DNA of 64,000 nucleotides from the NCBI RefSeq assembly GCF_021596945.1, contig NZ_CP063779.1, positions 3,446,001 through 3,510,000 of the forward strand. The letters are read 5' to 3'. Below are positions 52,645-58,176 of the stretch, one piece after another. Within the stretch, counting starts at the first letter, position 1. Each line of letters opens with the position of its first letter. A program made the translations under genes and the position numbers. The DNA is from Mongoliitalea daihaiensis (GTDB lineage: Bacteria; Bacteroidota; Bacteroidia; Cytophagales; Cyclobacteriaceae). The notes under the pieces were generated by a model. The model made no database searches. It worked only from the letters and a program-made list of their open reading frames with translations, and was not told the origin of the DNA.

Positions 52645-53520
52645 TTAAAAATCAATCAACTCAAATTGAATAAGTGAGCCCACTCTTTTTTGACTCAGCT
52701 GATTGATGGATTCTTCGGTAAGTTGTAAGATCCGTGGATATCCACCAGTAACCTGTGCTTCTCGCATCAAAGCGATCATACTTCCCGAAGGTGTTAGCTG
52801 AATTGTCCCCGGAAAAACAGGAGCTGTCAATAATTGAGGTAAACTATGTGAAGGAAGCCCAAGGAGTTCGTAGCCCATGCGGTCTTGTCTTGAACTGAGT
52901 TTAAACGTATTCTTTTGAATACTTTCTTGGATGGAGGTGGGCAAGAGTTGCCAATCTGATCCACGGTAGGCTTGAATCACCTGCAAATCCGGGAGAACAG
53001 GGGGATGTTTTAGGGTAGCGGTAGGTCTGAAAATTTCTGAAAGTGAAGATGGCGTCTGGAAAGGTAATAAATCACCTTTAGAAAGTTGAATGATAGGACT
53101 GATGCCTTTGGACCAACTGCGGCTATGAAGATAGTTGGGCGTTTGAAAACCGTCCTTTACAGCTAAATATATCCAATTTCCTTCTTTGTGTTGTCTTACT
53201 CGAAATTCAGCTCCTGCATTGATCGCATACGGTTTGTAAGGTAGTATGGATTTTTCGTCAATACTCAAACTAGCAAGAGAGCCCGTGACTACAATTAATG
53301 TGGGTGCATGAAATTTGAGTGTGATGGGAGCTGGACCTATTTCCAAGCAAGCCGCATCGGGTTGATTTCCAAGTAAGCGATTAGCTAGCTCGTAGGAAAA
53401 GCTGTCCATGGCACCTGAGTAAGGAACTCCCCAAAAAGCAAAACCTTTTCGACCCATATCCTGAATGCTGCAAAGCAAGCCTGCCTGTAATACTTCAACC
53501 TTTCCCAAAAGTTTATTCAT
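52645..53520 (-). CDS. pxpC: 5-oxoprolinase subunit C (biotin-dependent carboxyltransferase-like)
   Basis: The 291-residue protein belongs to the AHS2/KipA family. LQAGLLCSIQDMGRKGFAFW at the start, GVPYSGAMDSFSYELANRLL and the late QVTGGYPRILQLTEESINQL are typical. PxpABC cleaves 5-oxoproline with ATP to glutamate. The ATG at 53520 overlaps pxpB by eight bases, as expected; an upstream start inside pxpB is rejected. It is the last gene in the pxpABC operon. Confidence 0.9.
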   Translation of the reverse strand: MNKLLGKVEVLQAGLLCSIQDMGRKGFAFWGVPYSGAMDSFSYELANRLLGNQPDAACLEIGPAPITLKFHAPTLIVVTGSLASLSIDEKSILPYKPYAINAGAEFRVRQHKEGNWIYLAVKDGFQTPNYLHSRSWSKGISPIIQLSKGDLLPFQTPSSLSEIFRPTATLKHPPVLPDLQVIQAYRGSDWQLLPTSIQESIQKNTFKLSSRQDRMGYELLGLPSHSLPQLLTAPVFPGTIQLTPSGSMIALMREAQVTGGYPRILQLTEESINQLSQKRVGSLIQFELIDF

Positions 53521-54217
53521 GTCTCCATTCATACATTTCAGATTTAATAAGCTGGGATAAGTTATCAAATTCATCCTTTTCAATAGGGTAAAAGCTGATG
53601 CGATCACCTATCTTAGGTTGTACAGGAGGAGTTTTTTCTACTTCAAATAAGTTTAAAGGCGTCTTCCCAATGATGTGCCATCCCCCCGGTGAAGGAAGGG
53701 TATAGATGCCTGTTTGAGATCCACCAATTCCCACAGAGCCCGCTTCTACACGTCGATCAGGTATGCTTTTACGGTTGCTCACTAATCGATTATCTAATCC
53801 ACCTAAATACATAAATCCAGGTAAAAAACCATAAAAATGTAACAAATAGAATGGTTTTGAATGAAGTTCAATGACATCTTTCGGAGTCATATCTTTACTT
53901 GTAGCAAAGGATTGAAGGTCTTTGCCAAGTTCATAACAGACGGGTATTCTCCAATGTTGTGAGGGATATTCGTTTGCTACAATTGGACATGCTTCAATCC
54001 TTTTTTCCCAGCCGTACCGTTCTTGAGCTGATTGTAGCTCTTCAAAAAGAATGGTTAGTGTATGAAATCCGATTCGTAATTCCTGAATACCAGCGAAGCG
54101 CAGGAGTTGTGTATACAAGGACTCTTGCATTTTCAGGATTTCACTATGGACTTTTGCTTCCCATCGGAGTTCCAATAAAGCTGGATGAATCCAAATTTTT
54201 TCAAGAATGGGGGACAT
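53513..54217 (-). CDS. pxpB: 5-oxoprolinase subunit B
   Basis: The 234-residue protein is of the AHS1/KipI family. Motifs include IPVCYELGKDLQSFATSKDM and the FYGFLPGFMYLGGLDNRLVS stretch, followed by the GSVGIGGSQTGIYTLPSPGG turn. With PxpC it forms the ATP-dependent part of the enzyme. The ATG at 54217 overlaps pxpA by 17 bases; an ATG 11 codons further upstream lies deeper inside pxpA and is less likely. Confidence 0.9.
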   Translation of the reverse strand: MSPILEKIWIHPALLELRWEAKVHSEILKMQESLYTQLLRFAGIQELRIGFHTLTILFEELQSAQERYGWEKRIEACPIVANEYPSQHWRIPVCYELGKDLQSFATSKDMTPKDVIELHSKPFYLLHFYGFLPGFMYLGGLDNRLVSNRKSIPDRRVEAGSVGIGGSQTGIYTLPSPGGWHIIGKTPLNLFEVEKTPPVQPKIGDRISFYPIEKDEFDNLSQLIKSEMYEWRHE

Positions 54218-54908
54218 AGTGTTGGATTGCTTGAAGGATTGCCAAGGCACTTAAATTATCTCCATGAATACATAGCGTATCTGCTTGGAGAGGTAGGATA
54301 CTACCATCTATGGTGCGTACCTTCCCTTGGAATAGAATTTGGACATGCTCGCTTGCCTCTACCACATTTGTGATCAGTGCTTGGGGATGTGTACGTGATA
54401 CAAGACTGTAATCATTTTCATAGGTCCGATCTCCAAACACTTCCAACATGATGGGTAGTCCTTCTGCTGCTGCCAAAGTAGCCAAGACACTTTTAGGGGG
54501 AGCATATAAAATGACTTCAGGGTGGTTATGTTGGAGTATATCGATCAGCATCCCAGCCACCGCTTCATCTTTGGCTGCAATATTATACAATGCCCCATGT
54601 GCTTTGATGTGGTGAACAGGGGCTTTGCACGCTTTTGCCACATCAAAAAATAAGGTCAATTGCTCTAAAATACTAGATTTCAATGCTTCTAGAGTGATAT
54701 CCATTACTTTCCTACCAAAGTTGACACGATCTGGATAAGATGGGTGCGCTCCAATGTTCACCCCGTGTGCGGCTGCAAGCAAAATGGTTTGCCGGATGCT
54801 ATTTATATCACCAGCATGCCCTCCACAGGCTATATTGCAAGAATGTATAAAAGGCATCAGATCAGGATCGTTGGGAAGTCCTTCACCCAAATCACAATTG
54901 ATATCCAT
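54201..54908 (-). CDS. pxpA: 5-oxoprolinase subunit A (LamB/YcsF family)
   Basis: The 235-residue protein starts with MDINCDLGEGLPNDPDLMPF, the LamB/YcsF signature, then SCNIACGGHAGDI and GVNIGAHPSYPDRVNFGRK, and has KAHGALYN near the middle (catalytic/metal residues of the family). It is a TIM-barrel hydrolase subunit that opens the pyroglutamate ring. It is the first gene in the pxpABC operon. 5-oxoproline arises spontaneously from N-terminal Gln/Glu, so the enzyme also removes a damage product. Confidence 0.93.
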   Translation of the reverse strand: MDINCDLGEGLPNDPDLMPFIHSCNIACGGHAGDINSIRQTILLAAAHGVNIGAHPSYPDRVNFGRKVMDITLEALKSSILEQLTLFFDVAKACKAPVHHIKAHGALYNIAAKDEAVAGMLIDILQHNHPEVILYAPPKSVLATLAAAEGLPIMLEVFGDRTYENDYSLVSRTHPQALITNVVEASEHVQILFQGKVRTIDGSILPLQADTLCIHGDNLSALAILQAIQHYVPHS

Positions 54909-55883: not shown

Positions 55884-56468
55884 ATGAAAACTATTTTAAC
55901 ATTCGCATTAGCAGCAGTACTAGGTACCAATAGCTTTGCAAACGGATCAGAAGAAAGCACTTCCAACTTGGCAGTTGTACAGGCCAAAGAGAAAAAGGTA
56001 CAGGTCACTTTACGAGAAGGGGCAGGTAAAGTAAAAGTTCACATATTGGATGCCGACGGCAAGCGTCTATATCAGCGTCTCGTTCGTGTGCAGGAGGATG
56101 TTTTGGTTCCCTTTGACTTGACTGCTTTGCCATGTGGGGAGTATCAGGTTGCTGTGATCAGTAAAGAAAATCCAAGCAATCAAAGTGTGCACAAGGTCCA
56201 AATTACTGAAAATCCTGTTGTAGAATATCCATTAATGGCTTACGCTAAGCCGATAGACGAAGCCTCATTTAAGTTGACGGTGATAGGATTGGAAAAGCCT
56301 GGAACGGATATACAGATTTTAGATGAGTATGGCAAAAAAGTTCATCAAGAGTCAGTGACCGCAGTAGGTGGATTTTCGAGAGTGTATCAGTTGAAACAAT
56401 TATCTCTAGAGAATCTACGTGTAAAAGTTCGTGATGCTGATGGAAGGGTGAAAAATCTATATTTCTAA
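55884..56468 (+). CDS. Small secreted protein with two beta-sandwich-like domains
   Basis: This unrecognised 194-residue protein has a signal peptide ending near SFAN (residue 20). Two similar all-beta segments follow: ~38-105 (KVKVHILDADGKRLYQRLV then GEYQVAVISK) and ~125-194 (TDIQILDEYGKKVHQESV then LRVKVRDADGRVKNLYF). Both show the xILDxxGKxxxQ pattern known from Ig-like/T9SS-associated beta-domains, suggesting an internal duplication. Its likely location is periplasm or cell surface. It directly precedes the repeat lipoprotein gene but has its own terminator. Confidence 0.7.
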   Translation: MKTILTFALAAVLGTNSFANGSEESTSNLAVVQAKEKKVQVTLREGAGKVKVHILDADGKRLYQRLVRVQEDVLVPFDLTALPCGEYQVAVISKENPSNQSVHKVQITENPVVEYPLMAYAKPIDEASFKLTVIGLEKPGTDIQILDEYGKKVHQESVTAVGGFSRVYQLKQLSLENLRVKVRDADGRVKNLYF

Positions 56469-56489
56469 AACCAACTCTGTTTAACGACC

Positions 56490-56523
56490 ATCCCTAGGTA
56501 CGAAAGTATCTGGGGATATTTTT
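56490..56523 (+). terminator. Terminator after the small secreted protein gene
   Basis: ATCCCTAGGTAC-(GAAA)-GTATCTGGGGAT is an imperfect stem followed by seven T. Confidence 0.85.
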
Positions 56524-56624
56524 TTATGAAGTCAAACAGCTGTTTCATGAAGAATTCCACACTATTCATGAATTATTTCGATGCAGCCAAAGATTATTTT
56601 GTTTATTCGAAATAAAAAACCGTT

Positions 56625-58103
56625 ATGAAAAAATTTACCTTTATCTTTTTTATTCTCATAGTTACGTTTGCTTGTCAGATAGATACTTTGGAGGACAGCA
56701 CAGCATTATATCCAGAGGAGGAACAGATTTTCGAAGCTGTTTTTCTTAAAAATGAACAAAATTTTCGAGTTAGCAACAGTGAAGGTGTAAAGCTTCAAGT
56801 TATTCGTAAAGGTAACCCTACTCGTAGTCAAATTGGGTTTCGATTTTTGGTTGACAAAGATGTTTATCCAAGTGTTTCTAGCGTGGAGATCATTTCTCTA
56901 GAGTCAAATGCTGATAATAGCAACCAAAATAGCATCAACCCCTTAATCGCTACTTCCAATCCAAGTAAAGGGAAAGTAGCAAATATCTCAAGTCAATTTC
57001 TTCCGAGTGAGGCATTGACTGATTTGCTTTTGGGTTTTTCATTGGTGGATGCCAAAGGAAATTATCTGGATGAAGCTTTTTTTGAAATGACGATTACTTT
57101 CAATAATAGAAATGGGTTAAATGTTTCTTTTCAAAAATCGGCAGCTACTGAATTTGATGTTATTTTATCTTCTGCAGGAGCTGAAAAGTTGAAAGTGGTT
57201 CAAGTACTTCAATCAGAACTTATGATTTCAGACAAAGAGGCGATTTCTTTGATTGAAAAAATGCCTGTAATTGTTCTAGCGAGAGCAAGTAAAGAAGAAG
57301 CCAATCAACTCAAAGCCGCACTCGAAGCAGTAGGAGCTACGGTAGATTTAAAAAGAGCGCCTGAAGGGGGAAATGATAATGGAGATGAGGGAGAAGAAGC
57401 TACTGAATTTGATGTTATTTTATCTTCTGCCGGAGCTGAAAAATTGAAAGTGGTTCAAGTACTTCAATCAGAACTTATGATTTCAGACAAAGAGGCAATT
57501 TCATTGATTGAAAAAATGCCTGTAGTTATTCTAGCGAGAGCAAGTAAAGAAGAAGCCAATCAACTCAAAGCCGCACTCGAAGCAGTAGGAGCTACGGTAG
57601 ATTTAAAAAGAGCGCCTGAAGGGGGAAATGATGATGGAGATGAGGCTACTGAATTTGATGTTATTTTATCTTCCGCCGGAGCTGAAAAGTTGAAAGTGGT
57701 TCAAGTACTTCAATCAGAACTTATGATTTCAGACAAAGAGGCGATTTCTTTGATTGAAAAAATGCCTGTAGTTGTTCTAGCGAGAGCAAGTAAAGAAGAA
57801 GCCAATCAACTCAAAGCCGCACTCGAAGCAGTAGGGGCTACAGTAGATTTAAAAAGAGCGCCTGAAGGGGGAAATGATGATGGAGATGAGGCTACTGAAT
57901 TTGATGTTATTTTATCTTCCGCCGGAGCTGAAAAGTTGAAAGTGGTTCAAGTACTTCAATCAGAACTTATGATTTCAGACAAAGAGGCGATTTCTTTGAT
58001 TGAAAAAATGCCTGTAGTTGTTCTAGCGAGAGCAAGTAAAGAAGAAGCCAATCAACTCAAAGCCGCACTCGAAGCAGTAGGAGCTACGGTGGATTTAAAA
58101 TAA
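56625..58103 (+). CDS. Lipoprotein with four tandem L7/L12 C-terminal-like domains
   Basis: The 492-residue protein has a lipoprotein signal peptide (MKKFTFIFFILIVTFAC, lipobox TFAC, Cys17). A beta-rich region of unknown fold follows (~35-165), then four copies of a ~70-residue domain at 174-243, 259-328, 341-410 and 423-492, joined by acidic/Gly linkers of 15, 12 and 12 residues (RAPEGGNDDGDE). Each domain begins TEFDVILSSAGAEKLKVV and ends LKAALEAVGATVDLK. It aligns without gaps to residues 52-120 of E. coli L7/L12 with about 30 of 69 identities (comparison from memory). The elongation-factor contacts K70, R73 and K84 are Q, Q and I. The copies differ by only a few residues. A ribosomal role is unlikely; function unknown. 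Confidence 0.88.
   Translation: MKKFTFIFFILIVTFACQIDTLEDSTALYPEEEQIFEAVFLKNEQNFRVSNSEGVKLQVIRKGNPTRSQIGFRFLVDKDVYPSVSSVEIISLESNADNSNQNSINPLIATSNPSKGKVANISSQFLPSEALTDLLLGFSLVDAKGNYLDEAFFEMTITFNNRNGLNVSFQKSAATEFDVILSSAGAEKLKVVQVLQSELMISDKEAISLIEKMPVIVLARASKEEANQLKAALEAVGATVDLKRAPEGGNDNGDEGEEATEFDVILSSAGAEKLKVVQVLQSELMISDKEAISLIEKMPVVILARASKEEANQLKAALEAVGATVDLKRAPEGGNDDGDEATEFDVILSSAGAEKLKVVQVLQSELMISDKEAISLIEKMPVVVLARASKEEANQLKAALEAVGATVDLKRAPEGGNDDGDEATEFDVILSSAGAEKLKVVQVLQSELMISDKEAISLIEKMPVVVLARASKEEANQLKAALEAVGATVDLK
57144..58100 (+). repeat. Four near-identical tandem copies of the L7/L12-like domain
   Basis: Copies begin at 57144, 57399, 57645 and 57891 (spacing 255, 246, 246). The DNA copies are almost identical, including the linkers, with mostly synonymous differences (for example GCAGGAGCT versus GCCGGAGCT). 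The first linker is nine bases longer. This shows recent duplication or gene conversion by unequal crossover, so copy number may vary between strains. Confidence 0.95.
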
Positions 58104-58143
58104 GGAATAGAAAATAATCAAATAAGATATTCTTTGATCTACA

Positions 58144-58176
58144 ACCGTCTTTCAATTAAGGAAGGCGGTTTTTTCT
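58144..58176 (+). terminator. Terminator after the repeat lipoprotein gene
   Basis: ACCGTCTTTC-(AATTAA)-GGAAGGCGGT is an imperfect stem followed by six T. Confidence 0.75.

Follow-up and report, generated by a model that had tools for sequence, protein, structure and literature searches.

The ribosomal protein bL12 is highly conserved; its N-terminal dimerisation domain binds L10, and the alpha1-alpha2 segment of its C-terminal domain (CTD) is the factor-contact face, with K70 and K84 as contact residues. ClpS is a peptide-binding adaptor with an N-degron pocket. The L12 CTD binds translation factors (PMC4592705). Kaur et al. 2020 (PMC7159879) described L12/ClpS domains as insertions in Bacteroidetes conflict proteins of the vWA/beta-propeller type, and periscope proteins carry a stalk of repeats between an anchor and an adhesive tip (Whelan et al. 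2021, PMC8201768).

The locus described here lies in a 64,000-nucleotide stretch of the Mongoliitalea daihaiensis genome, the whole of which is called the window. The source organism is a soda-lake bacterium. Reading of the frames of the window identified an open frame at 56625-58103 on the plus strand, encoding a protein of 492 aa that begins with MKKFTFIFFILIVTFAC followed by Q; this N-terminus contains a lipobox with Cys17 that is retained in the ortholog of Mongoliitalea lutea. Both the lipobox signal peptide and the four domains of about 70 residues claimed in an earlier, sequence-only reading of this DNA were recovered, the former being visible in the sequence and kept in the ortholog and the latter corresponding to 69-aa repeats, all matched by PF00542. 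Export and lipid anchoring through the lipoprotein pathway are strongly predicted, and the four L12-like repeats form the free C-terminal end of the lipoprotein. The features of the gene are as follows.

56625..58103, plus strand: lipoprotein gene, 492 aa, four L12 C-terminal-like domains (open frame; M. lutea ortholog, with strong support for purifying selection)
56625..56675, plus strand: predicted lipoprotein signal peptide (aa 1-16) and Cys17, lipobox FAC followed by Q (sequence; MxKFTxIFFIL..FACQID common to both species)
56676..57140, plus strand: mature N-terminal domain, aa 18-172, predicted all-beta sandwich (model, pLDDT about 35-80; weak Ig/CBM-like sandwich matches, Z 7-8)
57147..57353, plus strand: L12 C-terminal-like domain 1, aa 175-243 (PF00542; model against 1ctf, Z 13.5, rmsd 0.9, 68 aligned)
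57354..57401, plus strand: acidic linker 1, aa 244-259, RAPEGGNDNGDEGEEA (sequence)
57402..57608, plus strand: L12 C-terminal-like domain 2, aa 260-328 (PF00542, best stretch 262-328)
57609..57647, plus strand: acidic linker 2, aa 329-341, RAPEGGNDDGDEA (sequence)
57648..57854, plus strand: L12 C-terminal-like domain 3, aa 342-410 (PF00542)
57855..57893, plus strand: acidic linker 3, aa 411-423, RAPEGGNDDGDEA, the same sequence as linker 2 (sequence)
57894..58100, plus strand: L12 C-terminal-like domain 4, aa 424-492, the C-terminus of the protein (PF00542)

The Pfam profile PF00542 (Ribosomal_L12) matched the whole protein at 6.9e-56 in four stretches, and the search with a single repeat, which the sequence-only reading had proposed, gave a match over the full profile (3.3e-15, 56.6 bits against a curated cut-off of 25.9 bits, profile positions 1-67 of 67). 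A repeat was matched to 1ctf by phmmer at 2.5e-10. Gap-free alignment gave 30/69 identities to E. coli L12, in agreement with the roughly 30 stated earlier over the same 69 residues, and 29-30/69 identities to the bL12 of the same genome. This likeness in sequence is far above chance level, and each repeat is a true homologue of the ribosomal L12 CTD.

An AlphaFold2 model of the mature N-terminal domain plus repeat 1, built from 16 aligned sequences, had a mean pLDDT of 72. Repeat 1 was modelled with pLDDT mostly about 80-93 in the order E-H-H-E-H-E (beta-alpha-alpha-beta-alpha-beta), and its superposition on 1CTF, also proposed earlier, returned the L12 topology (Z 13.5, rmsd 0.9, 68 residues aligned). 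Against ClpS the modelled repeat gave Z about 10 and rmsd about 2 at ~20% identity, in a comparison of fold only. The N-terminal domain was modelled as an all-beta sandwich at moderate to low confidence, and its weak Ig/CBM-like matches (Z 7-8) come from a comparison made with the model that includes repeat 1; residues 18-172 matched no family in Pfam or NCBIfam and, by sequence, no solved structure convincingly. A full-length model made with three sequences (pLDDT 46) was unusable.

The lipoprotein is not the ribosomal protein bL12. A normal rplL follows rplA- and rplJ-like frames at ~2.13 Mb of the 4.8-Mb, one-contig genome, whereas the lipoprotein gene sits outside the ribosomal operon, and the matches of this genome to PF00542 above the cut-off are rplL and the four lipoprotein repeats, with nothing else. 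The L12 N-terminal dimerisation domain was not found, aa 1-173 having no Pfam match. Summed over the repeats, the NCBIfam bL12 equivalog TIGR00855 scored 186.6 against a cut-off of 84.4, so automatic annotation may misname the lipoprotein as ribosomal.

Positions invariant in bL12 were defined from 25 Bacteroidota bL12s, with alpha1-alpha2 taken as E. coli 63-88. The lipoproteins retain 4/14 of these positions in alpha1-alpha2 and 10/12 in beta1 and alpha3-beta3; the 10 altered in alpha1-alpha2 include K70, G79, L80 and K84, and the bL12 motif TGLGLKEAK with K70 is not retained. Alignment confirmed the replacement of K70, R73 and K84 by Q, Q and I that had been read from the sequence, position 84 being T in M. 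lutea. Between the lipoproteins of the two species, 8/26 residues differ in alpha1-alpha2 and 1/23 in alpha3-beta3 (Fisher p = 0.026). Our interpretation is that the domain gave up the surface that contacts translation factors but preserved the L12 fold, and that its opposite side came under a new constraint, alpha3-beta3 being the most conserved part of the domain. Since the translation contacts are lost in the repeats, an old ribosomal part seems to be reused outside the cell interior.

A scan of the genome collection with the N-terminal domain returned one locus, that of M. lutea, whose product keeps the lipobox and the N-terminal domain and has one intact repeat and a second interrupted by a stop. 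Identity between the two proteins is 57% over aa 1-172 and 77% in repeat 1. The interruption is an in-frame TAA at the 24th codon of repeat 2 (L008:2344-2346), where repeat 1 has GGA, and past it the repeat is open to the same C-terminal end. Because the assembly is a draft, the TAA is possibly a sequencing or assembly error; taken as read, the stop indicates that the full array is not required in M. lutea. The comparison of copy number is between one genome per species, four repeats against one intact and one interrupted. No further clear relative was present in about 390 genomes of the family; outside the genus the N-terminal domain gave weak matches only (~20 bits), which where readable were signal-peptide-like stretches in unrelated proteins, and viral, phage and plasmid collections gave rplL-like matches or nothing. 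Among the genomes searched, Mongoliitalea alone yielded the lipoprotein gene. For the pair of species, dN/dS (NG86) was about 0.13 in repeat 1 and 0.19 in the N-terminal domain with dS near saturation; both parts are therefore constrained, and these ratios strongly support purifying selection on the gene.

PF00542 was also searched against 391 genomes of the family, 194 of the order and 296 of the phylum, in samples that overlap, and additional matches occurred in a minority of them. The proteins fetched for these matches were mainly of about 850-900 aa and resembled the vWA/beta-propeller type. Among the others, small proteins have half-domains made of the GLGLKEAK hairpin, and in a few Tc-like proteins, either very large or truncated, the L12-like domains number one to three. 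The small proteins (L065-L070, L096, L154-L158) carry the hairpin GLGLKEAKDxVD alone, often repeated and in some cases with membrane segments. The Bacteroidota Tc-like proteins (L104, L149, L148/L160; G733, G034, G096), so labelled by reading of the sequence and not by search, are about 3150 aa long, with a 539-aa frame in G096, and their L12-like domains are mostly N-terminal. A lipobox was seen in none of the frames with extra L12 domains that were read, several loci being cut at the 5' end; the lipoprotein architecture is therefore taken as unique to Mongoliitalea in these samples, and the search of Bacteroidota genomes for further lipobox-plus-L12 proteins that had been proposed earlier yielded the M. 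lutea ortholog only. The earlier statement that no described system of this type was known can be kept for lipoproteins, of which no described example was found. It has to be given up for L12 domains outside the ribosome, which have been described (PMC7159879), and tandem L12-like domains are also present in the large Tc-like proteins.

The repeat array has a DNA period of 246 bp, with 3.9 copies and 96% matches (Tandem Repeats Finder). Pairwise, the 210-bp domain units share 203-207/210 bases and differ by 0-2 amino acids, domains 3 and 4 being identical in amino-acid sequence. The repeats are thus near identical within the window, and between species dS is >1; in the two M. lutea copies, dS is 0.09 in the 3' halves, which are homogenised, against 1.09 in the 5' halves. 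Because the copies of the window are near identical and the 3' halves of M. lutea homogenised, the array is taken to be shaped by recombination, and the substitution pattern strongly supports an array that is young and altered by this process. In a tree of 67 columns, which gives little resolution and has long branches, all six lipoprotein repeats formed one clade (100/100), apart from the vWA-type and Tc-like L12 domains. The repeats were probably recruited once, from a bL12. Derivation from vWA-type or Tc-like L12 domains was considered and is disfavoured by the tree, though the branches are long. Sequence, predicted structure, synteny and the ortholog all support the earlier proposal that an L12 CTD was recruited into a lipoprotein of predicted export and then tandemly duplicated, and they support the loss of its factor-binding face. 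The earlier interpretation thus holds in part; the functions it gave as examples, adhesion or multivalent binding, are candidates.

Two stem-loops flank the gene.

56490..56517, plus strand: intrinsic-terminator-like stem-loop 3' of the upstream Ig-like gene (consensus scan, 12-pair stem and T run)
58143..58170, plus strand: intrinsic-terminator-like stem-loop 3' of the lipoprotein gene (consensus scan)

The first separates the Ig-like gene from the lipoprotein gene, and the presence of such stem-loops on both flanks suggests a single-gene transcript. No RNA family was found around the lipoprotein gene, and no evident partner gene adjoins it. The block thioesterase, Ig-like protein, M28 peptidase, acyl-CoA dehydrogenase and acyl-CoA synthetase occurs in the same order in four other genera, in which about 145-340 bp separate the Ig-like gene from the M28 peptidase gene and no lipoprotein gene is present; in the window the lipoprotein gene fills this gap. 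The M. lutea copy lies earlier by one gene, ahead of the Ig-like gene. On the simplest reading, a conserved block gained the lipoprotein gene in Mongoliitalea, and the position of the gene shifted afterwards. The order of the lipoprotein and Ig-like genes is reversed between the species (window 55884-58103; M. lutea L106:9438-12197), and the M28 peptidase is absent from the corresponding place in M. lutea. A fifth genus (G026, L111:5968-8237) has two unrelated genes in the gap, judged by reading to encode an ADP-ribosylglycohydrolase-like lipoprotein and a phosphotransferase-like protein, and the gap may be prone to insertions. At 52645-54908 of the window, three minus-strand genes resemble, by sequence judgement, a 5-oxoprolinase set (PxpC, PxpB, PxpA).

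The surface export signal of Bacteroidetes lipoproteins was defined in Capnocytophaga as K-(D/E)2 or Q-A-(D/E)2 near positions +2 to +6 (PMC5080379). Here the residues from +2 are QIDTLED, with Q at +2 and acids at +4, +7 and +8; they resemble such a signal, a point in favour of export to the surface, and match neither minimal form, which may not be that of this host. Net charge over +2 to +8 is -3, tied for second most acidic among 28 lipoprotein candidates taken by a simple pattern from about 464 kb. As the minimal signal is unmatched, the protein may face the periplasm.

The best reading of these data is an exported, lipid-anchored string of L12 beads that serves multivalent binding or variable-length display, a reasoned guess that falls a little short of an even chance. 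The protein would be exported through the lipoprotein pathway, with the beta-sandwich domain adjoining the membrane and the four folded L12 CTDs, on their flexible acidic linkers, as the mobile outer end. Each bead would weakly bind one common ligand through some surface away from the factor face; the string would thereby gain avidity and a reach that can be adjusted, much like surface proteins built from repeats, and copy number would tune binding strength or reach. This is supported by the conservation of lipobox and signal peptide though the N-terminal region is only 57% identical, and by the region-specific constraint that separates alpha1-alpha2 from alpha3-beta3. It is weakened by the unmatched export signal, the place of the repeats at the free end, the stop in M. 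lutea and the lack of an evident partner gene. The narrower proposal, a surface-displayed multivalent module of variable copy number in which alpha3-beta3 has taken over from alpha1-alpha2 as the binding face, and thus a new extracytoplasmic use of L12, is doubtful.

Several of the same observations would fit an inert or decaying orphan, in which an L12 fragment was accidentally fused to a lipoprotein gene and the array grew by recombination or slippage with no selected function: restriction to one genus, the stop in repeat 2 of M. lutea, the absence of an evident operon partner and a location relative to the neighbouring Ig-like gene that is not the same in both species. We regard this as unlikely, since dN/dS is well below 1 in both the N-terminal domain and the repeat, frame, lipobox and first repeat have been retained despite dS >1, and alpha3-beta3 is under region-specific constraint. 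Less probable again is a periplasmic decoy or adaptor, a sponge rather than a surface binder, whose domains would trap proteins or toxins with an affinity for the L12/ClpS fold. The incomplete surface export signal, the fold shared with the adaptor ClpS (Z about 10) and the L12-like domains known in Bacteroidetes conflict proteins and seen in large Tc-like proteins would agree with it, but the factor face, to which many stalk-directed ligands would be expected to bind, is lost, identity to ClpS in the fold comparison is ~20% only, and no conflict genes were recognised nearby, so that it is improbable. That the signal peptide is unused and the protein acts on translation in the cytosol, for instance in the role of a spare or regulatory stalk protein, is suggested by the ribosomal domain family and the summed TIGR00855 score but is very improbable given a lipobox conserved in two species, no match for the L12 N-terminal domain, lost factor-face residues and a normal rplL in the ribosomal operon.

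The lipoprotein is unusual, with a familiar domain in a new setting. Multiplied, stripped of its factor contacts and, as predicted, exported, this domain is a clean and young case of a ribosomal domain gaining a new job. As a natural experiment, the repeats help to tell the parts of L12 needed for folding from those needed for translation, and they are a warning that automatic annotation can call an exported lipoprotein a ribosomal protein.

Compared with bL12 (PF00542; 1CTF), the lipoprotein repeats share fold, length, 30/69 gap-free identities and the beta1 and alpha3-beta3 motifs, and both systems present several CTD copies on flexible linkers; unlike bL12, the lipoprotein has a signal peptide and a beta domain where a dimerisation domain would be expected, carries four CTD copies in one chain and is changed at 10/14 invariant alpha1-alpha2 positions. 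ClpS has the same overall fold and differs in sequence. The vWA/beta-propeller L12 proteins (PMC7159879) likewise have an L12 CTD outside the ribosome in the same phylum, but are of about 850-900 aa and vWA/beta-propeller-based as described in that paper, and at the loci of this type read here L12 is present once per locus, and no lipobox occurs wherever the start can be seen; the 25 Pfam families listed for the full-length lipoprotein include no vWA or beta-propeller domain, and aa 1-173 match none either. Periscope proteins resemble the lipoprotein in their tandem folded domains of very high DNA identity (246-bp units here), their recombination-prone copy number and their anchoring, with exposure presumed in the case of the lipoprotein. 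They differ in that the lipoprotein is anchored by an N-terminal lipid with its repeats at the free end and not in a stalk, and their copy number varies between strains, whereas that of the lipoprotein differs between two species, with one genome each. By this analogy, the periscope class would be the nearest working analogue of the bead string.
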